Of a DNA stretch of 31,483 bases, positions 7,110-23,708 are shown in pieces. Within the stretch, counting starts at the first letter, position 1. Each line of letters begins with the position of its first letter. Made by a program: the position numbers and the translations under genes. The notes beneath the pieces were generated by a model, which worked only from the letters and a program-made list of their open reading frames with translations, was not told the origin of the DNA and searched no databases. This DNA is from a virus: the IMG/VR virus record IMGVR_UViG_3300013132_000163, positions 1 through 31,483 of that record; one strand, given 5' to 3'.

Positions 7110-8119
7110 TGAAGAACTCTAGTAAATATAGAAAACCACCATTAAGAAGAACAAGGGATTCTTTCATAGATGATGTAAATTCTGAACAACATCCCAGAGA
7201 AGATTTAGGAAAAGGTAGGCATTTACAAACCCGTAGAGATAAAGATAAAACTAGAAATGTTGGTATAACATTATATGATATAGATTTTTCGGTTAAATCA
7301 TTTGTTAATCAAAAGATGATGATAAAAGTTGAGGATGGAATTGAATCAATATCCGTTCCAACTATTTATGCAAATGCAGAAAAATGGGCATCCATTCAAA
7401 AAGACGGATTTCTAAAGGATAAAAAAGGAAAAACTATTGTTCCTTTGATAACCTTTAGAAGATCAAGTGTATCATTCCGTTCAGATTTGAGACGAAATAA
7501 AGTTGCAACAACAAATCAAATTGCATATGTAATGCAACAACGATATAATAGAACTGCACCGTATGACAGATTTAGCACACAACAAAGTAAAAAGAGACCG
7601 TATGAATACTTTGTTACACCTATGCCTGATTATGTTGATCTTTCATATGACTTCATAGTATGGTGTGAATATCAGGATCAATTAAATTACATAATTGAAA
7701 ATTTTATTTGGTATTCCGGCCAAGCATTCGGTGATAAAAATTATTTTAAGTTTTCAACTATAATGGATTCTATTGCAATTGAGGATAATAATACAACGGG
7801 ACAAGATAGAGTTATCAGAGCTTCGTTTCAAATAGTTGTTCATGGTTATCTATTACCAAAACACATTGCAGCTGAATCAACAACAAAGAGACTCATTACA
7901 CCGAATAGAATAAATTTTGTTTCGGAACTGTTTGGTGACATAAATTCAATGCAGGATCCAAGTCGTTCTAGATTGGGTGATGGAACAGGTAGATCACAAT
8001 TTGGTAATTTGAATGATGATGCTGCCGCTAGATTGAGAGAATGGGAATTGCGTAAACAGAGATTGTTTGCAATTTCAGAAGGAAAAGCACCAGGAGTATA
8101 TCCTGAAGAAAATGATTGA
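7109..8119 (+). CDS. gp15-like tail completion / sheath terminator protein
   Basis: 336 residues. After a basic, likely disordered N-terminus (1-50), ISVPTIYANAEKW matches T4 gp15 IRVPITYASKEHF. The following VPLITFRRSSVSFRS and DLSYDFIVWCEYQDQLNYII correspond to T4 LPRINLHLVDFSYN and ELSIFTRYEDDMFQIVEQ. gp15 caps the sheath and tube and binds the neck. T4 gp15 is 272 residues; the extra length is at both ends. Order 13-14-15 is kept. The stop TGA (8117-8119) overlaps the first base of the next ATATTTAT motif. Confidence 0.75.
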   Translation: MKNSSKYRKPPLRRTRDSFIDDVNSEQHPREDLGKGRHLQTRRDKDKTRNVGITLYDIDFSVKSFVNQKMMIKVEDGIESISVPTIYANAEKWASIQKDGFLKDKKGKTIVPLITFRRSSVSFRSDLRRNKVATTNQIAYVMQQRYNRTAPYDRFSTQQSKKRPYEYFVTPMPDYVDLSYDFIVWCEYQDQLNYIIENFIWYSGQAFGDKNYFKFSTIMDSIAIEDNNTTGQDRVIRASFQIVVHGYLLPKHIAAESTTKRLITPNRINFVSELFGDINSMQDPSRSRLGDGTGRSQFGNLNDDAAARLREWELRKQRLFAISEGKAPGVYPEEND

Positions 8120-8126
8120 TATTTAT
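8119..8126 (+). promoter_or_regulatory. ATATTTAT motif, putative late promoter
   Basis: Exact copy beginning at the last base of the gp15-like stop codon and 36 nt before the ATG at 8163. No terminator precedes it, so the downstream gene may be read both from here and by read-through. Confidence 0.65.
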
Positions 8127-8162
8127 ATGTGTTATTTTACTTATTATTAAACGAGGTTTTAT

Positions 8163-8459
8163 ATGGCTGAGAATGCTGAAATTGTTATGGAAAAAGATTT
8201 TTCACAAGAAGATGTTACTGTTGTTAAAGAGTTACAATCAAAGTATGCATCAACAACTGCACAACTTGGACAAGTTGAAATAGAATTGTATATTTTGAAT
8301 AAAAGATTAGAACAGATGAACAGTTTACGTGAACAACTTTTTCAAAGATATGACGGATTGCAAAAAGAAGAAACTGATTTGGTAAAGTCACTAAATGAAA
8401 AATATGGTGATGGTGTTTTAGATTTAGATTCTGGAAAATTTATCCCATCTAAATCATAG
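8163..8459 (+). CDS. small coiled-coil protein
   Basis: 98 residues, unrecognised. Residues about 15-80 form a heptad-rich helix (VVKELQSKYASTTAQLGQVEIELYI, LNKRLEQMNSLREQLFQRY), and the tail ends GVLDLDSGKFIPSKS. Start is ATG after GAGG at 8153. It has its own ATATTTAT motif and lies between the gp15-like and sheath genes. A small scaffold, chaperone or minor virion role is plausible. The position suggests a structural-gene partner, but nothing in the sequence gives the function. Confidence 0.7.
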   Translation: MAENAEIVMEKDFSQEDVTVVKELQSKYASTTAQLGQVEIELYILNKRLEQMNSLREQLFQRYDGLQKEETDLVKSLNEKYGDGVLDLDSGKFIPSKS

Positions 8460-8476
8460 TTTGGACTTTTTCATTC

Positions 8477-8484
8477 ATATTTAT
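8477..8484 (+). promoter_or_regulatory. ATATTTAT motif within a palindrome, putative late promoter of sheath gene
   Basis: Exact copy, 36 nt before the GTG at 8521. It is centred in a near-perfect palindrome TTCATAT-TT-ATATGAA (8474-8489), so the motif overlaps a possible small hairpin. Confidence 0.7.
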
Positions 8485-8520
8485 ATGAAGACTTAATTCT
8501 ATAATTTTTTGGAGAAAATA

Positions 8521-10959
8521 GTGGCTAATGAAAGAATTGTAAGTCCTGGAGTGTTTACCAATGAAAATGATCTCTCATTTCTTCCACAAGGAATTGGAGC
8601 TATTGGTGCGGCATTGATAGGACCAACGCTAAAAGGACCAGCCTTCGTTCCTACTCTAGTTGAAGGATATAGTGACTTTGTGACTAGATTTGGTGGAACA
8701 TATGAACAATCATATTTACCTTACACTGCAAAAAACTACTTAAATAATGCCGGAAGTGCGACTATTGTTCGTGTTCTTGGATCTGGTGGATATTCAGTTA
8801 AACATCCTATTGCAATTGTTGCAACTGGTTCATGGGGTAAACAGTTAATATCATTTTTACACCCAACATTTGTTGTTACAGATAGCGATGCAACTTCATT
8901 ATTTGCTAAATCAACAATATCTGCAAATGCAAGTGGAAGTTTCAATCTTGTAATTTCCGGTGGATTCCAAACTGATCAAAGTGCATTTACAAATGCATCC
9001 GATGAAAATGGACAACAATTTTCACTATCAATAAATCCAGAAAGCACAGCATATATTGGTGATATGTTCGGATATAATCCCTATGGAACTCATGCAGTTT
9101 ACAATTATGTTGCTTTTAAGAAAGCCGCATCGTCATCACTTGCATCTGATCCATCAACCACAATTATTATGGAAACAGGATCAGCTGGTTCTCCGTGGGA
9201 TTTCACAAATGATTATCTTGAAGCATCTACACCATATATCACTTCTCAAAAAGTTGGTGGTTCAGCAACAAATCTTTTCCGTTTCCACACACTTTCTCAT
9301 GGTATTCATGCAAATTATGAGATTAAAGTTGGTATATCTAACATTCGTCCTGCTGGCACAATTGCTGGTTCTGAATACGGTGACTTTGATGTTGTTGTTA
9401 GATTTGTTGATCAATCTAAACTCCCACAGACACCATTTACAAGTGAAGATGATGATTTGAGACCATCTGTGGTAGAGCAATTTAAGTGTAATCTTGATCC
9501 AAATTCTCCAAAATATATCACAAGAGTTATTGGTGATAGATATTTGACAGTAAATGATGATGGAAAAGTTATCGTAAATGGTGACTATTCAAATAAATCA
9601 AAATATCTTCGTGTTGAAGCAACAGAGGCAGTTGCTAATGGTGGTGTATCACCAAATCTTGTTCCATTCGGATTCCGTTCTTTAACATCACCCATACCAA
9701 GTGGATTTTCACAACCTGCTGCAGCTTCTTATGTATCTGCACAAACAGCAGGTGGTTCTTACAATAGGAGAGTTTATTGGGGATTCAATTATGATTTCGT
9801 AAATACCGATAACTTTAATTATTTGAGACCACTTCCAATTATTGCAAACCAAACAACTGGTAGTAATACAGATTTCTATTTGGGCGATTACCAACAGGAT
9901 CCTGGTGCTAACTTCCCAACATCTGCAATTGCATATAGTTCATCAATAGATTTAACAACAAATACTGCACTGGATTCTCGTAAATTTATGGTGCCTTTCC
10001 AGGGTGGATTCGATGGTCATAAACCAAATCTTCAAAAGAAACTTGGTTCATATATTGAAGCCGGAAACACACAAGGATTTGATATATCAAATTCATCTAC
10101 AACCGGATATACTTCATATAAGAAGGCAGTCGCAACAGTTTCTAATGCAGACGAATTTGATATTAACATGATTGCAACTCCAGGTATTCTTCACTCATTG
10201 CATTCCGCATTGACATCATATGCTAAAGATATATGTGAAGACCGTGGTGATGCTTTCTATGTGATGGATTCAACTGGTATCAATGACAACATTGCAACCG
10301 CAGTTGCAACAACAGAAGGATTTGACAGTAACTACGCTGCAACATATTATCCTTGGGTTAAAATTATAGATATGGATAGAAACAAACCTGTTTGGGTTCC
10401 ACCATCAGTTGTTCTTCCGGGTGTAATCGCTTTCAATGACCGTGTATCTGCTGAATGGTTTGCTCCTGCTGGTTTGAATCGTGGTGGACTAACAGAAGTC
10501 GTTGAAGTGAAATCAAGATTGACACAAACAGAAAGAGATACATTGTATGAGGCAAGAATCAATCCTATTGCAGTTTTTCCTGCAACAGGCGTATGTGTGT
10601 GGGGTCAAAAGACATTACAAGGTCGCCCATCTGCACTTGACCGTATCAATGTTCGCCGTTTGTTGATTGCTTCCAAGAAGTTTATTGCTTCTTCTACGAG
10701 ATACCTTGTGTTTGAACAAAACACATCACAAACAAGAACTCGTTTCTTGAACATTGTGACACCATATCTTGAATCAATCCAACAACGACAAGGTTTGTAT
10801 GCTTTCCGTGTTATCATGGATGAATCAAACAATACACCTGACATCATTGACCGTAACATCCTTTATGGACAGTTGTTCTTACAACCTGCCAAGACCGCTG
10901 AATTTATCATTCTTGATTTCAACATTCAGTCTACTGGTGCTGCGTTCCCTGGTGCTTAA
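8521..10959 (+). CDS. gp18-like tail sheath protein
   Basis: 812 residues from the GTG at 8521, which has GGAG at 8511-8514. A TTG at 8509 would overlap that ribosome site and is rejected. The N-terminus ANERIVSPGVFTNEND is the typical sheath start (..SPGVxxxE). The C-terminal domain is also typical: RINVRRLLIASKKF, GLYAFRVIMDESNN, and ILDFNIQSTGAAF. This is the contractile sheath that surrounds the tube. It is longer than T4 gp18 (659), with the extra length in the variable middle (roughly 120-450), expected to be surface-exposed. A strong terminator follows. High-confidence family assignment. Confidence 0.93.
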   Translation: MANERIVSPGVFTNENDLSFLPQGIGAIGAALIGPTLKGPAFVPTLVEGYSDFVTRFGGTYEQSYLPYTAKNYLNNAGSATIVRVLGSGGYSVKHPIAIVATGSWGKQLISFLHPTFVVTDSDATSLFAKSTISANASGSFNLVISGGFQTDQSAFTNASDENGQQFSLSINPESTAYIGDMFGYNPYGTHAVYNYVAFKKAASSSLASDPSTTIIMETGSAGSPWDFTNDYLEASTPYITSQKVGGSATNLFRFHTLSHGIHANYEIKVGISNIRPAGTIAGSEYGDFDVVVRFVDQSKLPQTPFTSEDDDLRPSVVEQFKCNLDPNSPKYITRVIGDRYLTVNDDGKVIVNGDYSNKSKYLRVEATEAVANGGVSPNLVPFGFRSLTSPIPSGFSQPAAASYVSAQTAGGSYNRRVYWGFNYDFVNTDNFNYLRPLPIIANQTTGSNTDFYLGDYQQDPGANFPTSAIAYSSSIDLTTNTALDSRKFMVPFQGGFDGHKPNLQKKLGSYIEAGNTQGFDISNSSTTGYTSYKKAVATVSNADEFDINMIATPGILHSLHSALTSYAKDICEDRGDAFYVMDSTGINDNIATAVATTEGFDSNYAATYYPWVKIIDMDRNKPVWVPPSVVLPGVIAFNDRVSAEWFAPAGLNRGGLTEVVEVKSRLTQTERDTLYEARINPIAVFPATGVCVWGQKTLQGRPSALDRINVRRLLIASKKFIASSTRYLVFEQNTSQTRTRFLNIVTPYLESIQQRQGLYAFRVIMDESNNTPDIIDRNILYGQLFLQPAKTAEFIILDFNIQSTGAAFPGA

Positions 10960-10969
10960 TTAAAATAAA

Positions 10970-11001
10970 TGGGGAGTTGAAATACACTCCCCACATTTTT
11001 T
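10970..11001 (+). terminator. intrinsic terminator after tail sheath
   Basis: Stem TGGGGAG (10970-10976) with CTCCCCA (10987-10993), 10-nt loop, then CA and T6. Confidence 0.92.
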
Positions 11002-11010
11002 AATAGTCTT

Positions 11011-11018
11011 ATATTTAT
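11011..11018 (+). promoter_or_regulatory. ATATTTAT motif, putative late promoter of tail tube gene
   Basis: Exact copy 10 nt after the sheath terminator and 31 nt before the ATG at 11050. The terminator-then-motif layout allows separate, strong expression of the abundant tube protein. Confidence 0.7.
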
Positions 11019-11049
11019 GTAAAAGAACATTTTTAATTTGGAGATATAA

Positions 11050-11538
11050 ATGGCTGAATTACTCGATCCCAATGAAATTTTTTTCACACCGTTTGAACCA
11101 AAATTACAGAACCGATTTATTCTGTATGTTGAAGGCGTTCCTGCCTATTTGGTTAAAGGTGCAGGTAGACCAAACATCAGTTTCAACCCAATCACGCTTG
11201 ACCATATAAATGTGAAACGAAAAGTTAAGGGAAAGGGTGAATGGCAAGATGTTTCAATTAAATTGTATGATCCTATTGTTCCGTCTGCTGCTCAAGCAGT
11301 AATGGAATGGGTGCGTTTATCACATGAATCCGTAACAGGTCGTGATGGTTATTCTGACTTCTACAAGAAAGATATAACACTTCACATTCTTGGTCCGGTT
11401 GGTGATAAAGTTGAAGAATGGACACTCAAAGGTGCATTTATCACTGGCACAACATTTGGTGATATGGATTGGTCATCCGATGCATTTGTTGAAATATCTT
11501 TGACACTTGCATATGACTATGCTATCCTTCAATACTAA
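11050..11538 (+). CDS. gp19-like tail tube protein
   Basis: 162 residues, almost exactly the length of T4 gp19 (163). The pattern fits: an N-terminal FEPKLQNRFILYVEGVPAYL strand pair, then NITLDHINVKRKVKGKG-like and EWQDVSIKLYDPI strands, and the terminal FVEISLTLAYDYAIL. This subunit forms the inner tube through which DNA passes. Start is ATG with GGAG at 11041-11044. It directly follows the sheath gene, as in T4-type phages. Confidence 0.9.
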   Translation: MAELLDPNEIFFTPFEPKLQNRFILYVEGVPAYLVKGAGRPNISFNPITLDHINVKRKVKGKGEWQDVSIKLYDPIVPSAAQAVMEWVRLSHESVTGRDGYSDFYKKDITLHILGPVGDKVEEWTLKGAFITGTTFGDMDWSSDAFVEISLTLAYDYAILQY

Positions 11539-11577
11539 TACAATCTTTATTATTATATTGAAATTGAATTGAAATAC

Positions 11578-11604
11578 GGGTATACTGATTTTTTCGGTAT
11601 ACCC
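11578..11604 (+). terminator. hairpin after tail tube gene (probable terminator)
   Basis: Stem GGGTATAC (11578-11585) with GTATACCC (11597-11604) and an 11-nt loop containing six T. No T run follows; instead the ATATTTAT motif begins at the next base. It may terminate weakly, or may protect or process the tube transcript. Confidence 0.6.
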
Positions 11605-11612
11605 ATATTTAT
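11605..11612 (+). promoter_or_regulatory. ATATTTAT motif, putative late promoter of chaperone genes
   Basis: Exact copy directly abutting the 3' side of the hairpin at 11578-11604, 48 nt before the ATG at 11661. Confidence 0.65.
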
Positions 11613-11660
11613 ACTTGTATATTAAAACGTTTTATTAAAAACTATGTTATAGGATTAGTT

Positions 11661-12527
11661 ATGACAAAAATTCCAACCGGGTATGAAATACCCACAGAAG
11701 GACCACTATCTGATGCTGATATTAAAGCGCAATTATTGGCAGAACATAAACAGACTTCTGTTAAAAAAACAAATTTCCCTACTGAAATAATACCATTGCC
11801 ATCCAAGGGATATATTTATCCTCCCGATAGTCCATTGGCCGCCGGTGTTATTGAAATGAAGTATATGACGGCAAAAGAAGAAGACATTTTAACATCACAG
11901 AATCTAATTAAACAGGGTGTTGTTTTGGATAAATTGTTTGAGTCTTTGATTGTTACACCTATCAACTATAATGAGTTATACACTGGTGATAAAAACGCAA
12001 TTATGGTTGCAGCTCGTATATTAGGTTATGGCAAAGATTATGTAGTTGAAGTAGATGATCCATTTTCTCCTGGAACAAAACAAAAATTAACAATAGATTT
12101 AACTCAAATCGAGCACAAGGAGGTCGATTATAGCTTATTTGAGGCAGGAAAAAATGAATTTGACTTTGAATTGCCTACATCTAAAAGAGTTATTACATTC
12201 CGATTGATGACACATGGATTAGACAAAGAAGTTCAGGCAGAAGTAAAGGCCATGAACAAAAATCGTATGAAAACTGGAATTGATAGGGAATTAACAACAA
12301 GACTCAAACATATTATTACATCAATTGATGGTGAGACAGGAAGAGCTGCTATAAATAATTTTGTTGATAATGAGTTGTTTGCAGCAGATTCAAGAGCATT
12401 AAGACAGTATATTAAATCAATATCACCAGATTTGGATTTAACATATACATTTGTTTCAGATGCAACTGGTGAAGTAAAGGAGATGGATATCCCGATTGGG
12501 ATTTCATTTTTTTGGCCTGGATCCTAA
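11661..12527 (+). CDS. gp26-like baseplate hub / tail assembly chaperone
   Basis: 288 residues. LPSKGYIYPPDSPL followed by EMKYMTAKEEDILTSQNLI is the pattern of the T4 gp26-type baseplate family (T4_baseplate). The middle has DLTQIEHKEVDYSLF and a FRLMTHGLDKEV helix; the end is DIPIGISFFWPGS. In T4, gp26 takes part in hub assembly and gene 26 lies just before gene 51; here the gp51-like frame overlaps the 3' end. Placed directly before the tape measure gene, the pair sits where other phages encode tail assembly chaperones. Start is ATG after AGGA at 11652. The frame ends two codons after a T7 run at 12507-12513, so some ribosomes may shift into the gp51-like frame. Confidence 0.75.
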   Translation: MTKIPTGYEIPTEGPLSDADIKAQLLAEHKQTSVKKTNFPTEIIPLPSKGYIYPPDSPLAAGVIEMKYMTAKEEDILTSQNLIKQGVVLDKLFESLIVTPINYNELYTGDKNAIMVAARILGYGKDYVVEVDDPFSPGTKQKLTIDLTQIEHKEVDYSLFEAGKNEFDFELPTSKRVITFRLMTHGLDKEVQAEVKAMNKNRMKTGIDRELTTRLKHIITSIDGETGRAAINNFVDNELFAADSRALRQYIKSISPDLDLTYTFVSDATGEVKEMDIPIGISFFWPGS

Positions 12528-12732
12528 TTATAGAATTGGATTGCATGAGGAAATTTTTAGTCTTTGTTATTACGGTCAGGGTGGATTTACTTGGAATGAC
12601 GTTTACAATCTACCAATACATTTAAGACGATTTTACATAAAACAAATTGTTAAAATAATGGAAGAAAAAAATAAAAAAGACACAGAACAATATAATGCAA
12701 GAAAGAGGCCAGTCCCAACATTTACCCGGTAA
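12496..12732 (+). CDS. gp51-like chaperone frame, probably expressed by frameshifting
   Basis: The open frame runs from a TTG at 12496 to 12732. Its conserved part (HEEIFSLCYYGQGGFTWNDVYNLP, cited here as HEEIFSLCYYG and GGFTWNDVYNLP, then LRRFYIKQIVK) resembles T4-type gp51, which helps assemble the baseplate hub. The frame has no ATG until near 12658, no Shine-Dalgarno, and overlaps the gp26-like gene by 32 nt. It is in the +1 (equivalently -2) frame relative to that gene, and the T7 run at 12507-12513 is in the overlap. I infer that it is made as a C-terminal extension of the gp26-like protein, beginning around 12514, rather than as an independent protein. Confidence 0.7.
   Translation: MGFHFFGLDPNYRIGLHEEIFSLCYYGQGGFTWNDVYNLPIHLRRFYIKQIVKIMEEKNKKDTEQYNARKRPVPTFTR
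12507..12513 (+). other. candidate programmed frameshift site (T7)
   Basis: In the gp26-like frame the codons are TCA TTT TTT TGG. Skipping one T (+1), or slipping back two on the poly-T (-2), places GGC CTG GAT of the gp51-like frame next. No in-frame start serves the downstream frame, so slippage here is the simplest way to express it. A +1 or -2 event would differ from the -1 shift of the classic lambda G/GT chaperones. Confidence 0.6.
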
Positions 12733-12741
12733 AATAATCAT

Positions 12742-12776
12742 GGTTCGTATATTTATCTATACGAACCTTTTTTTTT
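12742..12776 (+). terminator. intrinsic terminator with ATATTTAT in the hairpin
   Basis: Stem GGTTCGTATA (12742-12751) with TATACGAACC (12758-12767), loop TTTATC, T9 tail. It ends the chaperone unit. The putative promoter motif (12749-12756) is inside the hairpin itself. Confidence 0.9.
12749..12756 (+). promoter_or_regulatory. ATATTTAT motif inside terminator, putative late promoter of tape measure gene
   Basis: Exact copy spanning the stem-loop junction of the 12742-12776 terminator and 36 nt before the tape measure ATG. One short sequence seems to end one transcript and begin the next. Confidence 0.65.
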
Positions 12777-12792
12777 AATATAAAATGAAACT

Positions 12793-15700
12793 ATGGCAGA
12801 AGATATTTCAAGGAGAGATGCGGAAGCTCTCGCCGGTTTAAGAAAACAAGAAGTTGATATAACACGGGAACTTATTGATCTCCGTGATAAACTTGTCACA
12901 CTTTCACGCGCTGATGTTTTGAATCTTGAAGAAGTTGCAAACATTCAATCTAGATCATTAGAATTAGAAAAACAAAGACAAGGGGTAACAAAACAAATAG
13001 TTTCTATAACCGGACAAGTGTTAGAAAGTGATGAAAAACGAGCAGAATTACAAGAAAGATCCAATAAAAATGCAGAAGATGCATTAAAAACAACCCGTGA
13101 AGTTCAAAAAATCCAGACAGAGGAATTAAAAGCTCAAAAAGAAAATGAACTTATATTGAAAAAGGCAAGTGATGTTAAGCGAGAAATGTTGGAAACCTAC
13201 AATGATGTAGTAAAATCAATAGGGGATGAAAAAAAATATGCAGAAGAACTGTTAAAGGTAAAAGAACAACAAAATGATGTAACAAACCTTTTACAATTAT
13301 CCGCTGAAAATTCTGCAAAAGAAGGTGGGGAAGTATTAAGAGCAGCTCAAGAACTTGCAAATACAACACAATTGATAACAAAAAATGTGGCTGAAAGAGC
13401 TGTTGCTGAAGCCGCCGCCCGTGAAGGTAAATTTGTAGAACTAAGCGTTGCAGCAGAACAAAGGGGACTTGATAGAGCTGCCATAGAACTCGTAACTGCG
13501 AAAAACCTTGGAAATATGGAAACGGTTGCTTTATTACAAAAAGAAATAGACTTTTTGAATGAAGAAGTTGCCATAAAAACAGAGTCTAATATGCTTAATA
13601 AGCAAATGGCTCAAGACATGGCAAAGGTGCTTGAAACAACAAAAATGATGAAAGACGCAATACAGTCGTCACCGATAGGGAGTTTAATAGATGGGGTGTC
13701 TAGTGCCGTAAAAAATTTACCAGGTGGCGAAATGATTGCAAAAACTCTTGGTGTTGATAAATTATCCGAAGATATTAAAACGAATTTGGGCGATACTATG
13801 TCAAATGTAGTTGCCGGATTCAAACAAGGTGGATCAGAAGGTATGGCTGCACTTTCAGATGGTGCCAAGGCATTTGGAAAAACACTTATGACAGGACCAC
13901 AGGCAGTTATAGTTTTGATGGTTGCTGCTGTTGCAGGTTTGGTTGCCATATTAAAAAGTGGTTTTGATACAATGGTTGAGCAATTTAATAAAGCTGACCA
14001 GGCGGTTTCCGATATGCAAAAGGCATTTGGTGGAACCAAAAAAGATGCAGTAGAAACTTTCAAAGCTGCTCAAGGTATGGCACAAGAAATGGGAATCGTT
14101 GGTGTAAATTCAAAAGAAGTTGCCAAGGGTATGGGTATTGTAAGTGAATTGATGGGTGGATTGGATGTTGCTTCTCAAATAAAATCTGGAAATAAAGAAC
14201 TTGAACAATTTGCTAAAGATGCAACTGTTTTGAGTGAAAAATTTGGAATGAGTGCAGATGAAATTGGTAATATAAAGGCACTTGCAACTATGACTGGTGA
14301 ATCTATGGGTTCTCTTGTCAAAAAAGGAACTGGTCTTGCAAAAGGATTGATGACGGATAAAGAGGCAATGAAGACACTTGCTTCTGTTCCAAAATCGGTA
14401 TCGGTTGCTTTCAAAGGTGGAACGGAATCACTTATCAAGGCAGCACAAAAAGCAAAAATGCTTGGAACAGATTTGGGTAGAATCCAATCAATCGGTGACG
14501 GTATGCTTGATATTGAATCATCACTTGCAAAAGAAATGGAAGCCCGAGTATTGACTGGTAAACAATTAAATCTTGATTCTGCAAGACAACTTGCACTTGC
14601 TGGTGACATTGCTGGATTGCAAGATGAATTGTTGAATCAAGCTGGATCACTGGAAGAGTTTCAAAATATGAATAGACTTCAACAAAAATCTATGGCAGAT
14701 GCAATGGGTATGACTGTTGAAGAAATGACTGAAATGCTTACAAAGGCACAAGAATACAGAGATGTTGGATTGGATTCTGCTAAAATAACAGAATTGCAAA
14801 ATATGAATCAAGAACAACTTGCAGAAGAAATGAAAAAGGCATCTAGTGCCGAACAAAAGGCATATATCGAAAAAATGGCAAAAGAAAAAGAAGCGGCAAC
14901 TATGGCTGAACAATTTGCAGATATTATGACAAAAATTCAGGAAAAGATAACATCTTTCATTGCACCAATTATTGATGTGATACATGGTCTATTTGATGCA
15001 GGTGATGCCGCTGGTGGCATAACCGGAGCATTGGATGGTGTGTTTGCAATACTAACTCCAATTTTTGATATAGTAGTTGGTTTGGGTAAGATACTTTTCA
15101 ATGCAATTATAGCACCATTCAAAATAGTATTTACAATACTTGGTTCTATATTTGATGTTGTTTCATCGGTATTCTCGCTTTTCACAAGTGCTGGTGGGGA
15201 AATAGGAGATACATTTGGCAGTATAGGTGATATATTTACATCAATACAAGATACCTTTATGAGTATCGGTCAAGCTATTTTAGATACATTTCTTGCACCG
15301 TTAAAAATAGCATATGAAACTGCTATCACGCCTATATTCGATGTATTTGAATTATTGAAAAAAACATTTAGTGAAGTATTTGAATCCGTTAAAAAAGCGT
15401 TTGAACCATTATTTCCTGTTTCAAAACAAGGCGAAGAAACTGCGGGCATAATGGACACGATAAAAGGCATATTTGAAAAAATGAAACCAGTCATAACAAT
15501 GATTGGAACTATAATTGCCGCATTTATTGTTAAACCCATTGAAATTTTTGCAAGTGTGATAACTGGTATAGTTAAATTATTTACTGGTGATTTTGCGGGT
15601 GCTGCCGATAGTGTTGGTAAAATAATATATGATTTGTTTATAGGATTGCCTAAAACAATTTTGACAGCCATTGCAGGTGCAATAGATGCCATATTTGGAA

Positions 15701-16884
15701 CAAATTTAACTAAATCTGTTGGTGACTTTTTTGATTTTGTAACTGGCATATTCGGTGATATTGGCGACTATGTTATGAATATAGGGGGTTTGATATTAGA
15801 TTATCTAATGTCACCATTTGATTTAGTATCTACCGTTATAGATGGAATTGTGCAAATGTTTAGCGGCGATTTCATGGGTGGTTTAGAAACAATTGGCGGT
15901 GGTATTAAAGATTTCATCATGGCACCGTTTGATTTAGTTAGCGGATTGTTTGATAATTTAATGGGAACAATTGGAAAGATAACCGATAAAGTTTCAGGAG
16001 CTCTTTCTTTTTTTGGAATCGGTGGCGATGAAGCTGAAGAAGAAACCCAAAAAAAGGCAGAAGAAACAAAGAAAGGTGGATCAGCAAGTCCTATAAAATC
16101 CGCATCTGCCGGTGCATTGAATCCTGCCAATGAAGCGTATATGGGCCCCAAGGGTGGTGGTCCATCCATGAATCCAAAGGATTATCCAGATGGATCTCGT
16201 GCACAACAATTGGCAATGGATGGTGATGTTGAAGGATTGCAGAAAGAAGTTCAAATGTTAGGTGCCGCTGCTAGTGGTGGTATTATCAAAAAAGGTGGAG
16301 CAACATTGGTTGGTGAAAACGGACCTGAGGTTGTATCATTACCACAGGGTTCAGTTGTTGCTAATGCAAGTGCAACACAACAAGTTGGTGCTGCTATGGA
16401 CGCAATGGGCGGTGGTGCCGCAGAAGGGCAAGCCGAATCACCTGAATTATTGGTGTTACAAAGCATAGATTCAAAAATATCTGCGTTACTAGAACCTTTC
16501 CAAAAAATAGGTGAAATAGTTGGTAGTTTGGGTGGTGGTTTAGGATCAATTGCTGGTGGAATAATGGGTTCGGTTGGTGGAGCAATGAAAAGTTTATTCG
16601 GTGGTGGAGAATCAGAATCAGGAGCATCAACTGTTTCAGAAACACCAATGGGTGTTCCATCTGCCTTGGTATCAGGTGGTGAAGGTGCTGCCTCCGCTCC
16701 TGCTATTAACTTATCCAATGTTGAGGCAAAATTAGATAACATTGCAAATATATTAAATTCTGCCGCAAATCAACCAACATATATTAACATTGGTGAAAGA
16801 ACAATAGAAGAAATAAAATCTACATTAAATATGAAAGAATCCTATAACATAACATCTAACATTGGTAACGGAAGACGGGTTTAA
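12793..16884 (+). CDS. tail tape measure protein
   Basis: 1363 residues. The first 280 are charged coiled coil (EEVANIQSRSLELEKQRQG). A hydrophobic segment lies near 370-392 (AVIVLMVAAVAGLVAIL). A helical middle is followed by degenerate hydrophobic repeats (about 720-1090) with the recurrent elements APFKIV / SPFDLVS / APFDLVS and FTGDFAGA / FSGDFMGG. The C-terminus has GGIIKKGG...VGENGPE near 1174, a widespread tape-measure ending. The motif QLA..GD..GLQ.E occurs twice (about residues 597 and 1136). The protein sets tail length and is ejected during infection. At the usual ~0.15 nm per residue it predicts a tail near 200 nm, about twice T4. It follows the chaperone pair, as expected. No clear Shine-Dalgarno precedes the ATG. 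Confidence 0.92.
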   Translation: MAEDISRRDAEALAGLRKQEVDITRELIDLRDKLVTLSRADVLNLEEVANIQSRSLELEKQRQGVTKQIVSITGQVLESDEKRAELQERSNKNAEDALKTTREVQKIQTEELKAQKENELILKKASDVKREMLETYNDVVKSIGDEKKYAEELLKVKEQQNDVTNLLQLSAENSAKEGGEVLRAAQELANTTQLITKNVAERAVAEAAAREGKFVELSVAAEQRGLDRAAIELVTAKNLGNMETVALLQKEIDFLNEEVAIKTESNMLNKQMAQDMAKVLETTKMMKDAIQSSPIGSLIDGVSSAVKNLPGGEMIAKTLGVDKLSEDIKTNLGDTMSNVVAGFKQGGSEGMAALSDGAKAFGKTLMTGPQAVIVLMVAAVAGLVAILKSGFDTMVEQFNKADQAVSDMQKAFGGTKKDAVETFKAAQGMAQEMGIVGVNSKEVAKGMGIVSELMGGLDVASQIKSGNKELEQFAKDATVLSEKFGMSADEIGNIKALATMTGESMGSLVKKGTGLAKGLMTDKEAMKTLASVPKSVSVAFKGGTESLIKAAQKAKMLGTDLGRIQSIGDGMLDIESSLAKEMEARVLTGKQLNLDSARQLALAGDIAGLQDELLNQAGSLEEFQNMNRLQQKSMADAMGMTVEEMTEMLTKAQEYRDVGLDSAKITELQNMNQEQLAEEMKKASSAEQKAYIEKMAKEKEAATMAEQFADIMTKIQEKITSFIAPIIDVIHGLFDAGDAAGGITGALDGVFAILTPIFDIVVGLGKILFNAIIAPFKIVFTILGSIFDVVSSVFSLFTSAGGEIGDTFGSIGDIFTSIQDTFMSIGQAILDTFLAPLKIAYETAITPIFDVFELLKKTFSEVFESVKKAFEPLFPVSKQGEETAGIMDTIKGIFEKMKPVITMIGTIIAAFIVKPIEIFASVITGIVKLFTGDFAGAADSVGKIIYDLFIGLPKTILTAIAGAIDAIFGTNLTKSVGDFFDFVTGIFGDIGDYVMNIGGLILDYLMSPFDLVSTVIDGIVQMFSGDFMGGLETIGGGIKDFIMAPFDLVSGLFDNLMGTIGKITDKVSGALSFFGIGGDEAEEETQKKAEETKKGGSASPIKSASAGALNPANEAYMGPKGGGPSMNPKDYPDGSRAQQLAMDGDVEGLQKEVQMLGAAASGGIIKKGGATLVGENGPEVVSLPQGSVVANASATQQVGAAMDAMGGGAAEGQAESPELLVLQSIDSKISALLEPFQKIGEIVGSLGGGLGSIAGGIMGSVGGAMKSLFGGGESESGASTVSETPMGVPSALVSGGEGAASAPAINLSNVEAKLDNIANILNSAANQPTYINIGERTIEEIKSTLNMKESYNITSNIGNGRRV

Positions 16885-16887
16885 TAA

Positions 16888-16913
16888 TTTAGTATTTTCA
16901 TATTTATACTAAA
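16888..16913 (+). terminator. weak hairpin overlapping ATATTTAT motif
   Basis: Stem TTTAGTAT (16888-16895) with ATACTAAA (16906-16913) and a 10-nt loop. It is AT-rich and lacks a T tail, so terminator function is doubtful. The motif overlaps loop and 3' arm, as at 12742-12776. Confidence 0.35.
16900..16907 (+). promoter_or_regulatory. ATATTTAT motif, putative late promoter of giant gene
   Basis: Exact copy 27 nt before the ATG at 16935, inside the weak hairpin at 16888-16913. Confidence 0.65.
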
Positions 16914-16934
16914 AAGGTATAACGAGGAAATTTA

Positions 16935-19900
16935 ATGTCATTGATGGACCTAAAATCAGATTTATCAAAATATAGATCGGAAGTTACTAGTGAAGATAAA
17001 GCAACAAATTATTCTTCTCAAGCAACTAATGCTAAAAACTTTGCAACAGTTCAACCTATTAGTGACAGTTTAATAAAACAAATTCCTAATATACAAAAAC
17101 CAAAAACAAGTGATGTTACTAAAAAACTTGGATCAACAGGTCTTGATGATATAAAAAAACCAAACATTAAAAGTATATCATCTAAATTGGATTCTACCAA
17201 ATTTGATGATATAATTAAACCAGAATCAACGGGAGGAAATCTTGAAGAACTGGCTGCAAATGCTGGTATTGATCCAATAAAAACTTCATTAGAAAGTTTG
17301 TTGGTAAATTCTATTTCACAATACTCACCTCAAACTTCACAAATTCGTAGTCAAGGATTGGGTTCTGCGCCATTGGAAAGTATAATGTCAAAGTTCTCCG
17401 AAATACGTAGAGAACAACTTTCAAGTAACCTAACCAATTCAGATATAGAAATAAATAGAACAACGCCTGGCCAAAATAATACAGAATCTAACATTTCAGT
17501 AGAAAGATCAATTTTATCAATAGACCGTCAAATAACAAGTCCTGAGATAAATACAAATTTATCTGAAACTACTAATAATATAACCAACCCAAATATAGTA
17601 ATAAACAGACCTGTATTGTCTTTTGATCGTAGTGGACAATCAATTGCAGACAATAAAGGTTTGGTCAATATAAGTGGAAATATAACCAATCCAAATTTGG
17701 TAATAAATAGAACCGCACTATCCATTGACAGAGAAGGTCAATCTGCAATTATAGATACAGAATTATTGTCCCCTATCAACAATGTAATAAATCCAAATAT
17801 ATCACTATTACGAAAAGAATTATCATTTGATAGAAATGAACAGACACCAAACATAATAACAAATACTATAAAACAAGGTTTGGTTGTAAATCCAGATATA
17901 AAAATAGTTAGGATAGAAGCTGGAACAAATCATTTTGAAGATGAAAGTGAATTAAATTACGATATTCCGCCTATACGCTTTGTTGCAACATCGAGATTAG
18001 ATAAATTAACACCATTGCAAGAAGTAACATCAGAAAGATATTCACAAAATTCTATACATGAAAAAGATAATAGTGAATTTAATCTTGATGGAATAACACC
18101 AACTAATCCTGGTGGTAGATATGAGAAACCGGTTCAATCTTTATTTTCAATAGTTGGTGTTCAAGAAGTAAATAATTTTACAAATATACACGCAATAGGA
18201 TTCAATGCTAATGCACAATTAAACGATACAAAGTTTGTAGGTGCATCACAATTTGTTTGGACTGGATTGGCAGACTCTGCACCTGCTGTTAATTTTATGC
18301 CAGATGTAAATTCATTTGGTTTTACTAAATTTGCACAAAAAGGAATAAGTAATTACAATCCTAATTCATCGGCATATGGTTTCATAAAAATACCATCAGT
18401 AAATTTCTTTGATGTTCAAGAAGGTTCGACTGTAAGCGGATTCACAACATTTGCAACTCCTTTACTAACGGAATACAATGTTGAATCATCTACATTTGGA
18501 TGGCCTGGAAAAAAAGATGCAGTTCCTGTTGTTAATTATTTTGATTTAAGTGGGCAATCAACAACAGAAGGATTTACTCCATTTCAATTGACATATGATA
18601 GTAAATACATTCCAGATGCATCATCATTTACTTGGCCTGGAACAAAAGATCAATCACCGGAAGTAAACTATTTTGATACAACTATTCCAAAAACAACTGC
18701 TGGATTTCATAAATTTGCAATATATCAAGATTCAAAATACATTTTAGATGTTTCGGATCATGTGTGGAAAGGGAACAGAGTTCAGGCACCTGTGGTTAAT
18801 TACTTTGATTCATCCAATGAATTTACAACTGCGGGATTTCAAACATTTAATGGATTTTTACAAAGTTTCTACAAAAAGGATTCATCTAGATTTGATTGGG
18901 ATGGTTTCGCATCACAAAACGCACCAGAAGTTAATTACTTTGATTTATTAGGCAAATATACAACAAACGGTTTTCATAAATTTGCCCAAAAATATGATAG
19001 TAAATACATACAGGATTCTTCTGATTTTGGTTGGATCGGTGCTAGAAGTGAATCCCCATTTGTTAATTATTTTGATATTGCAAATGAAAAAACTACTACG
19101 GGATTCCATACATTTGCACAAACATACGATTCAAAATATGTTCCAGAATCATCACTTTTTGATTGGAACGGATCAAGGGAAGATGCTCCTGTTGTAAATT
19201 ATTTTGATTTAACCGGTAAAAATACAACAGTAGGATTCCATTCATTTGCTGAATTGAGAGATACTAAATATATTCCAGAATCATCCGATTTTGATTGGAA
19301 CGGATCTAGAGACCAGGCACCATCTGTTAATTATTTTGATTTGATTAAAAAGAATACAACTGCGGGTTTCCATAATTTTGCAGAAATATATGATACCAAA
19401 TATATCCACGGTTCATCCATTTTTGATTGGGATGGTGTTCGTAATGATGCACCTGCTGTTAATTATTTTGACTTAAATTCAACTAATACAAAAATTGGAT
19501 TCCACACATTTGCACAAATATATGATTCAAAATATGTAGAAGAATCTTCCGTATTTGATTGGGATGGTGCAAGAAATGCTGCACCATCGGTTGATTTCTT
19601 TGACTTATCGAAAAAATTTACAACAGTTGGTTTTCATACTTTTGCACAAATAAGAGACACTAAATATATTCCAGAATCATCTGAATTTGATTGGGATGGG
19701 AAAAGATCAGATTCTCCAGAGGTAAATTATTTTGACTTGGGTAGTGATTTTACAACTGCTGGTTTTCATAGACTTGCAAGAATGTTGGATAGTAAATATG
19801 TAAAAGAGTCTTCACGATTTGATTGGGATGGATCTCCAGAAGAATCACCAGAGGTTAATTATTTTGATATTGGTGGTAAATTTACAACAATAGGGTTTCA

Positions 19901-22900
19901 TAGAAAGGCAAAAATCTACGATTCAAAGTATGTTCCAGATTCATCGGAATTTACTTTTGTTGGTAAATTTCCAAAGGCAGGAACTGATTATTTTGATAAA
20001 GAGGGAAAAAATCAAACGGGATTTACGTTAAACATTCAACCAAAGGGTTCAAGCAAACCACCTGAAACGGAGTATTTTCACGAAAGTTCATTTTATACAT
20101 TTGTAGGAAATAGACCATCAGAACCTGCAAACTGGTTTGAAAATACAAATGCCTCTGGATTTACACAAGATATAATGCCAAAGGGTTCAAGTAATCCGGA
20201 TACAGAATACGAACACGAAACTTCTACTTATGGATTTGCTGGTAGAAGACCTGGTGCTGGTGTAAACTATTTTGATCAACAGGTGAAAAATCAAACAGGA
20301 TTTACACTTGACATAATGCCAAAGGGATCTGGAAATCCTGATACAGAATATAAAACAGAATCATCTGTATATCCAATAGGTTTTGGATTTCAAGGTAAAT
20401 ACCCCCAACCACAAAATTTCTTTCCAGATTCAAATGCAACTGGATTTACATTAAACATATTCCCGAAAGGCGGTGCAAGGCCATTAGCGACTGAATATAC
20501 ACACGAAACATCTGGATATACTTGGGCTGGAACACCAATTGATGCACCAACTATAAATGCATTTGATATAAATGGGGTTTACACACAAGAGGGATTTCAT
20601 AGTTTTGCTGCTTTATATGACAGTAAATTTATTTTGGTTGATAAAAATAACAATAAAAAACACAGTTCAAAATTTGGTTGGGCTGGTGCTAGAAGTGAAG
20701 CACAATCTGTAAATTATTTTGGATTGAATAGACAGCCAATAGGTAAACAATATATTGACGATATTCAAGCGAATAATAGAACACAATCTGCTAGAGGATT
20801 TAATACATTCTTTACGGATAAAACACAGACAAAATTTAATTCATCGTTTTCTGCGTTCGCAACAGAAAATGGGCAAAATAAATCATCTGTTGTTGATATA
20901 CCTGTAACAAACTTTTTTGGTTTTAACTCAACAGTTCGTTCTGCATTTTTGGCAAAAATGACTTTAACAAATGGAACATTATATCCTATAATATCCCCAT
21001 CGTTAGATGCGAATGCTTCTGCAGTTGATCGTTCAAATGTAGAATCACGCCGAGGATCTTTAGAATTAAATAGAGACCGTGCTAAGTTTGAAAAATTTGC
21101 TCCTTTGTCTCTTGGTAAACGTCCTTGGGCAAATGGTAATTTATATTCAACACTTGACAATCAAATACCGAATATAAAAACAAAGGCACCCGCTGGTTCT
21201 TATGTTGAACCATACGAGGAACAATTACGTATAAAAACCAGTGATTTTGGTTATCTGCATAATTGGGCAATTAAAGGATCTACTTTTTCTAAATCACCAT
21301 TGGATGAACAATATGAAAAGTATTCTCTTCCGGATGCCGCCTACAATACTGATAGTGCAAGTCCACAGCCGTTTGTAATTCATGGTATACAGGGATCTAA
21401 AGTTGTAAAAAATGAAACAATCAAAAAGTTTTCGGAATTTGGAGACTTGGATGTTAAGAGAATTGAAAATTGGTTAAAGACAACAAAGGGTAAACTTTGG
21501 CAAGAACGTCAGAGTATGTTGTATAAGATGAACCCAATAGTTGATTATGATCCTGATGATTCTGGTACACAAGAATCTAATTTCCCAATAAATCATGTGT
21601 ATAATGTTGGTTCTTTGATAGATAACGTCAGAAATATGGGGCAGTTTCCAAAAGGAGATATTTTGGCTACACATGGAACTGCACAATCTTTGAACAAATA
21701 TGAAATAACCACCATTAAAATGAATCCAATGAATAATGGTGAATTAACAAAAATTCCTAGAGGGAATACACCATCTGATAGTAACAGATACCCATACAAA
21801 TATAATCGTTTAATTGCATTACTTGGTGAGTTGATTCCATCAGCAAATAAACCATTAAATGCAAAAATAACAGATACGCCTGCCGCTCCAACATCAACGA
21901 AGATATTGAGATTATCTGCGGCTGGAAGGGGTCCAAATTCATATATGGGTATGGGATCAACAGACATAAATCGTGCTAGTCATCCGTATTTGTCATATTA
22001 TAGAACTGACGGTATTCTTGCAAATTATCCAGAAACTGCACAGTTTCAAACATACTATGCCGGTGCATCGGTTGGAGACGGTGGATCAGATGACACATAT
22101 TCATATGCAAATAGATTGAAGAAACAAAATAATGAAACCGGTAATAAGTTTGGTGGTATATTAACTGCATTGTCATACCTGATAGAATCCGGATCTAAAT
22201 ACGAAAATGATACATCTACATATTCTTATGAAAACGGTGTATTAGATATTCAACCAAATGTTCTTGGGTTGATTAGACAGAAAGATGTATTCAATCCTAG
22301 ATATGTTCCATTTATTGAAAGATTAAGAAAAACAAATTTAGGTTTTACAAAAGGAGAAACTATTGCTTCTGTGCCACCATCCAACCAAAAACCAGTGGAT
22401 GCACCACATAAACAATTTTCAACTGTTGCATATAGTAAATTACAAAAGGCAAAAAGAGGAACGGGTGGTAGATCACATGACTTTAACGATTTCAGACATG
22501 ATATAGATAATGTGGATAATACTGATGGAAACAGAGGAACTGCACCTGGATATTTTTCAACCGATGCTAAGGTTGCAAGATACCATGAATATAATCTTGA
22601 AAAAAATCATGGATTTGGAAAACAAGGTGAACCCGGCAATCAAAGAAACTTACCATTCAAATCAAATATATTCTACGAAAAATCTACAAAAGGTAGTGGG
22701 AAATATGCCGTTCCAAAAGAAAAAGGACAAGGGTATAAATTTAGAGGTGATAGAATAAACATTATAGATTTTAAGAGAGGTAGCACTAATAAAATTGATA
22801 GTGATTATGTATATGAAACAGGAAGATATGCGGAAAGTTTACCTGGTGCACAAGATTTGATAGAATTTTACTTTACAACTGCGAGGATAAAGGGTAAAGA

Positions 22901-23708
22901 AGCAGCTGCAATAGTTTTTAGAGCTGCATTTGATACTATAACTGATAATCATAAACCAGGATGGTCTGCTGTTAAATACATGGGTCGTGCTGATCCAGTT
23001 TATATGTATGATAATTATGAACGTGATGTTAGCTTTGGTTTCACGATACATATAGGATCAAGAGATGAAATGAAAGCAACTTGGCGTAAGTTAAATTATC
23101 TTGCATCTTGGACTGCTCCAGAGTATGTTGGTCATTTTATCCGAGGTCCTTTATGCAGATTAAATATAGGACATCTGTTTAGAAAAACACCTGGATTCAT
23201 AAATTCATTGTCATATAGTTTTGATAATGTTGGTTCAACATGGGAAACTGCACAATTGAAAGAGGATTGGGATTTGGCGGGCTCATCTGCAAACGCATCT
23301 AAACCTGGCGTATTGCAATTGCCAAAAACAATTCAAGTATCTGTTGGATTTACTGTAATAGGTGTTTACAGACCACAATTTAACGGAACAATGTATCAAT
23401 TGTATGATGATGACCTTGCAGGAACTGCTGATGGTATTATACCAACTCCAGATACGGTTGTTAATTATTTCAGAACATTTGATAATGTTTCAATAACTGA
23501 TCCGGATGCTAAGGAATATACACCAATAGAAGCTGGTGCTACTAATGTTGCATTGATTGCAACAACATCGTCTGCTAATCCAGTTCCAGATGATTTAACA
23601 AATGATCCAGTTCTAAAGAGCATTGTTATAGCTGATGCTGCAACTGGTGTTATTTTAACTGCTCCAACGGGTTCAAGTGTTCCATTTACAGGTCCGGTTC
23701 CACCATAA
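16935..23708 (+). CDS. giant repeat protein with baseplate / tube-initiator-like C-terminus
   Basis: 2257 residues, the largest gene here. It starts MSLMDLKSDLSKYR, with GAGG at 16924. Residues about 170-320 hold a few copies of a first repeat, N-P-x-I-x-I-x-R-x-x-L-S-x-D-R. Residues about 450-1280 hold about 18-20 copies of a second, 44-residue repeat (VNYFD, TTxGFHxFA, YDSKYxxESS, FDWDGxR). A later region has WLKTTKGKLWQERQSMLYKMNP-like sequence near 1512, resembling a patch I recall from other environmental phage baseplate proteins. The C-terminal domain (about 1965-2145: MGRADPVYMYDNYERDVSF, RDEMKATWRKLNYLAS, FIRGPLCRLNIGHL) resembles baseplate or tail-tube-initiator proteins (gp48/gp54 role in T4). 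It lies between tape measure and hub genes. I infer a baseplate component in which the repeats form a long fibrous or ring element. Confidence 0.65.
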   Translation: MSLMDLKSDLSKYRSEVTSEDKATNYSSQATNAKNFATVQPISDSLIKQIPNIQKPKTSDVTKKLGSTGLDDIKKPNIKSISSKLDSTKFDDIIKPESTGGNLEELAANAGIDPIKTSLESLLVNSISQYSPQTSQIRSQGLGSAPLESIMSKFSEIRREQLSSNLTNSDIEINRTTPGQNNTESNISVERSILSIDRQITSPEINTNLSETTNNITNPNIVINRPVLSFDRSGQSIADNKGLVNISGNITNPNLVINRTALSIDREGQSAIIDTELLSPINNVINPNISLLRKELSFDRNEQTPNIITNTIKQGLVVNPDIKIVRIEAGTNHFEDESELNYDIPPIRFVATSRLDKLTPLQEVTSERYSQNSIHEKDNSEFNLDGITPTNPGGRYEKPVQSLFSIVGVQEVNNFTNIHAIGFNANAQLNDTKFVGASQFVWTGLADSAPAVNFMPDVNSFGFTKFAQKGISNYNPNSSAYGFIKIPSVNFFDVQEGSTVSGFTTFATPLLTEYNVESSTFGWPGKKDAVPVVNYFDLSGQSTTEGFTPFQLTYDSKYIPDASSFTWPGTKDQSPEVNYFDTTIPKTTAGFHKFAIYQDSKYILDVSDHVWKGNRVQAPVVNYFDSSNEFTTAGFQTFNGFLQSFYKKDSSRFDWDGFASQNAPEVNYFDLLGKYTTNGFHKFAQKYDSKYIQDSSDFGWIGARSESPFVNYFDIANEKTTTGFHTFAQTYDSKYVPESSLFDWNGSREDAPVVNYFDLTGKNTTVGFHSFAELRDTKYIPESSDFDWNGSRDQAPSVNYFDLIKKNTTAGFHNFAEIYDTKYIHGSSIFDWDGVRNDAPAVNYFDLNSTNTKIGFHTFAQIYDSKYVEESSVFDWDGARNAAPSVDFFDLSKKFTTVGFHTFAQIRDTKYIPESSEFDWDGKRSDSPEVNYFDLGSDFTTAGFHRLARMLDSKYVKESSRFDWDGSPEESPEVNYFDIGGKFTTIGFHRKAKIYDSKYVPDSSEFTFVGKFPKAGTDYFDKEGKNQTGFTLNIQPKGSSKPPETEYFHESSFYTFVGNRPSEPANWFENTNASGFTQDIMPKGSSNPDTEYEHETSTYGFAGRRPGAGVNYFDQQVKNQTGFTLDIMPKGSGNPDTEYKTESSVYPIGFGFQGKYPQPQNFFPDSNATGFTLNIFPKGGARPLATEYTHETSGYTWAGTPIDAPTINAFDINGVYTQEGFHSFAALYDSKFILVDKNNNKKHSSKFGWAGARSEAQSVNYFGLNRQPIGKQYIDDIQANNRTQSARGFNTFFTDKTQTKFNSSFSAFATENGQNKSSVVDIPVTNFFGFNSTVRSAFLAKMTLTNGTLYPIISPSLDANASAVDRSNVESRRGSLELNRDRAKFEKFAPLSLGKRPWANGNLYSTLDNQIPNIKTKAPAGSYVEPYEEQLRIKTSDFGYLHNWAIKGSTFSKSPLDEQYEKYSLPDAAYNTDSASPQPFVIHGIQGSKVVKNETIKKFSEFGDLDVKRIENWLKTTKGKLWQERQSMLYKMNPIVDYDPDDSGTQESNFPINHVYNVGSLIDNVRNMGQFPKGDILATHGTAQSLNKYEITTIKMNPMNNGELTKIPRGNTPSDSNRYPYKYNRLIALLGELIPSANKPLNAKITDTPAAPTSTKILRLSAAGRGPNSYMGMGSTDINRASHPYLSYYRTDGILANYPETAQFQTYYAGASVGDGGSDDTYSYANRLKKQNNETGNKFGGILTALSYLIESGSKYENDTSTYSYENGVLDIQPNVLGLIRQKDVFNPRYVPFIERLRKTNLGFTKGETIASVPPSNQKPVDAPHKQFSTVAYSKLQKAKRGTGGRSHDFNDFRHDIDNVDNTDGNRGTAPGYFSTDAKVARYHEYNLEKNHGFGKQGEPGNQRNLPFKSNIFYEKSTKGSGKYAVPKEKGQGYKFRGDRINIIDFKRGSTNKIDSDYVYETGRYAESLPGAQDLIEFYFTTARIKGKEAAAIVFRAAFDTITDNHKPGWSAVKYMGRADPVYMYDNYERDVSFGFTIHIGSRDEMKATWRKLNYLASWTAPEYVGHFIRGPLCRLNIGHLFRKTPGFINSLSYSFDNVGSTWETAQLKEDWDLAGSSANASKPGVLQLPKTIQVSVGFTVIGVYRPQFNGTMYQLYDDDLAGTADGIIPTPDTVVNYFRTFDNVSITDPDAKEYTPIEAGATNVALIATTSSANPVPDDLTNDPVLKSIVIADAATGVILTAPTGSSVPFTGPVPP
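17450..17895 (+). repeat. second coding repeat family (INR..LSxDR)
   Basis: Within the giant gene, units read NPNIVINRPVLSFDR, NPNLVINRTALSIDR and NPNISLLRKELSFDR, with degenerate copies before and after. The regular copies are about 40 residues apart. They are unrelated by eye to the FDWDG repeats downstream. Confidence 0.7.
18288..20725 (+). repeat. array of ~18-20 degenerate 132-nt coding repeats
   Basis: The repeats encode the 44-residue unit VNYFD-(x5)-TTxGFHxFA-(x2)-DSKY-(x3)-SS-x-FDWxG-(x6). For example the VNYFD codons at 19194 and 19326 are exactly 132 nt apart. Copies from about 18530 to 19940 are the most regular. After about 19970 the unit shifts to a variant (NQTGFTLxI-PKG-TEY-HE(S/T)S), then one classic copy returns near 20550-20710. 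The repeats are protein-level; nucleotide identity is moderate, so they are old. Confidence 0.85.

Follow-up and report, generated by a model that had tools for sequence, protein, structure and literature searches.

The tail assembly chaperone gene of this myovirus is, on the sequence evidence, very probably a single gene read in two ways, with a short protein translated in the 0 frame and a long protein produced by +1 programmed ribosomal frameshifting. The window, which is the whole stretch of 31,483 nucleotides analysed, is a 31.5 kb viral fragment in which the tail genes, all on the plus strand, are in the usual order of sheath, tube, gp26-like gene, second frame and tape measure. The tail sheath protein (8509–10959) matched PF04984 (E=1.5e-19), the gp19-like tail tube protein (11050–11538) matched PF06841 (E=5e-7) and phrog_4542 (E=1e-27), and the tail tape measure protein (12793–16884) matched phrog_58 (E=3.5e-16). 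The chaperone locus (11661–12732) lies between the tube and tape measure genes, as is typical for chaperones of the G/GT type. No phage genomes near-identical to the window were found.

The gp26-like gene (11661–12527) encodes the short chaperone TAC-N, a protein of 288 aa that matched PF12322 (E=1e-6; 29.0 bits against a curated cut-off of 24.5), phrog_150, labelled 'baseplate hub' (E=3e-10), a profile of cyanophage gp26 (E=9e-6, a single-pair hhalign value) and many gp26-like entries of BFVD (best E=9e-20). Its 3' end reads GGG ATT TCA TTT TTT TGG CCT GGA TCC TAA, with a T7 run at 12507–12513 and the 0-frame stop codon at 12525–12527. The second frame, offset by +1 from this ORF, has a nominal TTG at 12496 and a stop codon at 12730–12732, and overlaps the gp26-like gene at TCA TTT TTT TGG CCT, just 5' of the tape measure gene. 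The portion of this frame from 12511 to 12732 constitutes the extension, TAC-C, and would be translated only after a shift. The proposed shift site, TTT TTT TGG (12507–12515), is preceded by an A (12506) and followed by CCT (12516–12518), which encodes Pro in the 0 frame and contributes positions 1 and 2 of a conserved Leu codon to the +1 frame. The preliminary description had recorded the T7 run, the overlap and the need for a shift of +1 or −2, all correctly.

Conservation of this junction was examined in loci that were mostly metagenomic fragments. Scans of IMG/VR detected 49 loci with the downstream protein and 80 with the upstream protein; together with a scan around the homologue in Flavobacterium phage immuto, two isolates and MAG contigs, these provided 147 distinct junctions, of which 146 entered the main comparison and one (L352) was a further variant. 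Relatives that keep the slip site came from both sea and fresh water. The most common motif was TTTTTTTGGCCT (106 of 147), followed by TTTCTTTGGCCT (28) and TTTTTTTACCCT (7), with TTTCTATGGCCT (n=3), CTTTTTTGGCCT (n=1) and TTTCTTTACCCT (n=1) being rarer and TTTTTTTTCCCT, i.e. TTT TTT TTC CCT, being found in L352. The variants TTT CTT TGG, TTT CTA TGG and CTT TTT TGG retain +1 re-pairing at the first codon. The offset was +1 in all 128 loci containing both parts. The third base of the first shift codon was T in 146 of 146 junctions, as was the T of CCT, while upstream codon usage in the first 85 junctions was 77 % TTT for Phe and 26 % CCT for Pro; the naive probabilities of such invariance are ~3e-6 and ~2e-15, respectively, for 25 clusters at 70 % identity treated as independent. 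The alignment of relatives that had been suggested as a check therefore showed conservation of both the T-run site and the overlap.

Differences in the +1 frame beyond the 0-frame stop were distributed over codon positions 1, 2 and 3 as 4671, 3389 and 12091. As these concentrate at third positions of the +1 frame, the extension is translated and under purifying selection. The alignment of the extension opens with FF(G/T)L at the T run, and the residues F, F, L, P and R are invariant. The extension does not include an N-domain and is not a separate full-length gp51 gene. The earlier term 'gp51-like frame' was therefore apt in that this frame is probably homologous to the C-terminus of gp51, but not as a name for a whole gp51. 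The +1 offset, the frozen motif and selection in the +1 frame together support the earlier proposal that a programmed frameshift joins the two frames.

In the proposed mechanism, most ribosomes would translate 11661–12527 and terminate, yielding the short form. A minority would slip +1 with tRNA-Phe on UUU at 12507–12509 re-pairing at UUU at 12508–12510 and would then read UUU GGC CUG GAU..., producing a long form of 356 aa (...IGISFFGLDPNYR...) with a gp51-like C-terminal extension. For the window-type +1 product, the predicted tryptic junction peptide is EMDIPIGISFFGLDPNYR. By analogy with lambda G/GT, the role of the short form may be to coat the tape measure protein and that of the extension to recruit the tube protein. 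We infer that the shift occurs, that its rate is that of a minority event, that the first codon is the one that slips and that the products have these chaperone roles.

Several junctions bear on which codon slips. The L117 site (CTT TTT TGG) offers the CUU-U move known from prfB. The TTT-Y pattern is fitted by LR756508 (TTT CTA TTC CCT), which had no close relatives in IMG/VR, by Listeria and Bacillus relatives (TTT TTT AGT and TTT TTT CAC) and, at the second codon, by GXN1 (TTC TTT CGT). The residue that follows a first-codon slip is conservatively F or Y in the +1 frame while the 0 frame alternates between F and L, a pattern suggesting that ribosomes have entered the +1 frame by this codon. 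In RM378, the 0-frame Pro is replaced by Asn and the +1-frame Leu, otherwise invariant, by Ile, indicating that coding in the +1 frame is what constrains CCT and that the slip site is upstream of it. Slippage at CCT itself (CCU to CUN) was ruled out, because RM378 keeps the +1 arrangement without CCT and the +1-frame Leu explains the conservation of CCT. No downstream RNA structure was detected as a stimulator, with folding z scores near zero (mean −0.3 to −0.6 for 49 representatives) and no match in an Rfam search for such a structure. No close SD-like stimulator was conserved in the +1 family, in which there was a weak mean signal of −4.0 kcal/mol at −6 and a stronger SD-like signal at ~−28, too far upstream to serve as a close SD.

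The same frame could be reached by a −2 frameshift of the phage Mu type, with tRNA-Phe on 12510–12512 re-pairing two bases further 5' in the T run to give SFFFGL. Such a shift is known in Mu (PMC5009743), is feasible on paper for runs of six or seven T, including the L117 site, and would likewise account for the T at the third position of the first codon. However, 32 of 146 junctions have a C within the run (TTT CTT or TTT CTA), and at these a −2 move would place Leu-tRNA on UUC, whereas the first codon allows a +1 move with perfect re-pairing from UUU to UUC. As TTT CTT TGG and TTT CTA TGG allow the +1 slip of Phe-tRNA but not the −2 slip, +1 is favoured; LR756508 (TTT CTA TTC) and GXN1 (TTC TTT CGT) are equally incompatible with −2. 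A −2 shift is hence improbable, and the original choice of +1 or −2, although right about the frame, can be refined to +1. Less probable still is an arrangement of two separate genes in which the extension has its own TTG or non-canonical start, or arises by a restart near the 0-frame stop. The nominal TTG at 12496 does have an AGGAG upstream, and some SD-like match precedes the nominal start in 8 of 85 loci, but the AGGAG is 13 nt away, too far for a normal ribosome site. Among the relatives, 49 of 146 junctions lack ATG, GTG and TTG codons throughout the stretch that runs from the preceding +1-frame stop to the motif's end, the positions of starts vary with no conserved one found, and a search for a proper start codon for the second frame was negative. 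The earlier view that this frame lacks a credible start or ribosome site is borne out. Conservation that starts exactly at the T run and synonymous sites that are frozen within the motif also argue against a second gene.

Two further explanations are prompted by the homopolymer itself. Transcriptional slippage on the T run would generate mRNAs one base shorter, but T7 is short for such slippage, and the +1 arrangement persists in the 32 of 146 relatives in which runs do not exceed three, so this is highly unlikely. A sequencing error would typically fall at a homopolymer, as the break does here, and a decayed gene would also present a broken frame. Either is scarcely credible, as the same break occurs in 147 distinct junctions, including those in the complete genomes of the isolates Microcystis phage Mel-JY01 and immuto, and purifying selection acts 3' of it. 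A +1 ribosomal frameshift thus remains the preferred reading.

A homologous extension is present in the −1 frame, at a canonical heptamer, in cyanophages, KVP40, HTVC008M, phiM12, Cr30 and phiW-14. For the window itself, a canonical −1 heptamer (X XXY YYZ) was ruled out, with the extension in the +1 frame and an A before the run. The base preceding the run separated the two types of site. It was T in none of the 147 +1 junctions and in all 61 cyanophage-type −1 loci, as well as in all eight named −1 phages (Syn9, P-SSM2, S-PM2, Cr30, phiM12, phiW-14, KVP40 and HTVC008M). A T before TTT TTY creates the canonical U UUU UUY heptamer, the cyanophage-type site being T TTT TTY. Codons ending in T account for 43–78 % of Ser, Gly, Asn and Asp codons and 40 % of Thr codons in genes of the +1 lineage; given this usage, the absence of T has a log10 P of ~−12 on 70 % clusters treated as independent. 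The −1 family has an SD-like GAGGG ~12 nt upstream of the site (mean −7.9 kcal/mol at −13). The jumbo phages XacN1 (L350) and LR756511 (L170) have the −1 arrangement with T before the run (GCT TTT TTT and GGT TTT TTC), and in LR756511 the 0-frame stop is ~60 nt past the shift site. It is probable that this chaperone family switched frameshift direction between lineages, with the preceding base setting the direction (T for −1; non-T with TTT-Y for +1) and selection having removed T. The pattern is strong, and from it we infer that the −1 slip was eliminated from the +1 lineage by selection. A single origin of +1 had support of 100/100 in the first N-domain tree; once the long-branched −1-type XacN1 and LR756511 were added it was no longer resolved and was not rejected (p-AU 0.37). 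If the rule is true, it would define a +1 signal independent of both a stop codon and a detectable stimulator.

The relationship to T4 was investigated by profile comparison, all hhalign E-values being single-pair values. Both gp26 and gp51 of T4 matched PF12322 end to end (E=9e-64 and 4e-52, respectively); gp51 is ~48 residues longer than gp26 and their profiles matched at E=6e-17. The window-type extension matched the cyanophage −1 extension (E=3.5e-10), which in turn matched the gp51 C-terminus (E=3e-8), while the direct profile match between the window-type extension and the T4 gp51 C-terminus was not significant. The extension is, as judged from these profiles, probably homologous to the gp51 C-terminus via cyanophage intermediates. 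The window extension had no direct phrog match, and phrog_634 was matched at E=0.14–0.2 in two relatives. Genes 26 and 51 of T4 are adjacent, back to back, on opposite strands, and the opposite strands rule out that they are two frames of one gene. The preliminary description was accurate in placing 26 and 51 next to each other and in its view that they correspond to G/GT-type chaperones, but they are divergently transcribed paralogues for the short and the long form rather than two frames. In the N-domain tree, the gp26 and gp51 clades were sisters (95/87) among the −1 phages, a placement that opens up once jumbo phages are included. The gp51 of cyanophages and marine vibriophages is without the first ~200 residues (Sullivan et al. 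2010, PMC3037559); on present evidence, this short gp51 would be the frameshift extension. In one T4-like contig, the gp51 homologue matched over 746 nt (L146:4001–4746), a length that implies a frame change inside it, either real or a sequencing error.

The AlphaFold2 model of the +1 product had a mean pLDDT of 84, with a confident N-domain and a mostly helical, less certain extension; a model of a T4-like gp51 had a pLDDT of 82. The best second-look (VIA) match of the N-domain model was the HK97 tail assembly chaperone 2ob9 (Z 5.4, 72 residues, 3.1 Å), a modest match yet ahead of unrelated chains. Foldseek gave E=1.4 with the chaperone model, and a PDB sequence search had no match. The assignment as a tail chaperone is carried by gene order, homology and frame architecture, which agree with the G/GT-type identity proposed previously.

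A terminator-like element, a perfect 10 bp hairpin followed by T9 (12742–12767), lies 3' of the chaperone extension and 5' of the tape measure gene. A perfect stem with a T-rich tail occurred at the same place in 26 of 48 relatives, with differing stem sequences, and through this hairpin the chaperone may be produced in larger amounts than the tape measure protein. Terminator-like hairpins were also present 3' of the tube (11578–11604) and sheath (10970–10993) genes, and the region 8000–17500 contained 11 terminator-like sites against 4.9 expected. The T4 late-promoter-like sequence TATAAATA occurred at 10 sites against 5.1 expected over both strands, for example at 12350–12357 (plus) and 11606–11613 (minus). 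An ORF of 2257 aa 3' of the tape measure gene (16935–23708) contained many diverged repeats of ~35 residues (VNYFDL...TTxGFHxFAQIYDSKYVPESSxFDWDG) and had no match in a Pfam search. A 458 aa ORF (62–1438) had only sub-threshold matches, to restriction-endonuclease-like, zinc-finger, ROS/MUCR and Mom family entries.

Public annotations split or drop the long chaperone in Mel-JY01, immuto and SP-15, the frameshift being missed in L132, L133 and L349. Mel-JY01 is annotated with two hypothetical proteins at the chaperone locus, while immuto35A_232 (36 aa) and SP15_046 (39 aa) each represent a piece of the extension. MAGs with the labels Flavobacteriales, Winogradskyella and Sphingobacteriales contain relatives (L351–L354) that hint at Bacteroidota hosts for such phages, although these contigs may be mis-binned phage. 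The +1 reading supplies the missing long tail chaperone for a widespread, mostly uncultured T4-related lineage, and provides a +1 motif for gene finders: [not T] YTT Y(TT/TA) T(GG/AC) CCT. As one lineage has this gene with a +1 shift, another has it with −1 and T4 has it duplicated, the choice of direction can be tested on near-identical sites.

Tail chaperones made by −1, −2 or +1 frameshifting have been reviewed, with T4 named as the exception (PMC5009743). Vladimirov, Gautam & Davidson 2022, as cited in PMC12846349 and PMC10885494, identified chaperone genes of T4-like phages and proposed a non-frameshift route for some; to judge from these citations, that work may already cover some of the phages considered here. 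According to the PRFect authors, a general motif for forward frameshifting was not known (PMC10885494). Frameshifted tail chaperones have been published, as has the assignment of T4 26 and 51 as chaperone genes. The +1 version carried by a large environmental lineage appears to be new, and so does the sequence rule that separates +1 from −1. The open papers searched did not describe the +1 site of this lineage.

Compared with known systems, the locus resembles T4 gp26/gp51 in its homologous N-domain (PF12322) and, via cyanophages, in a probably homologous extension at the same place at the end of the N-domain, whereas the short and long forms are divergent paralogous genes in T4 and would be products of one frameshifted gene here. 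Cyanophage gp26 and 'short gp51' (P-SSM2, S-PM2 and Syn9; also KVP40, HTVC008M and phiM12) likewise overlap at a poly-T tract a few codons before the stop, but the cyanophage type would shift −1 on T TTT TTY with GAGGG, while the present type would shift +1 with no T before the run and without such an SD. Lambda G/GT similarly has a short and a frameshift-extended chaperone ahead of the tape measure gene; its shift is −1 rather than +1, and the likeness is one of architecture. In prfB (RF2), CUU UGA undergoes a comparable forward slip of the P-site tRNA to UUU, and CTT TTT TGG (L117) and TTT CTT TGG contain CUU-U; prfB has a stop codon in the A site and an SD 3 nt upstream, in contrast to the sense codons UGG, UUU or CUU and the lack of a conserved SD here. 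In Mu, likewise a myovirus, a −2 shift in the chaperone gene leads to this same frame, but the site variants found here are incompatible with −2.
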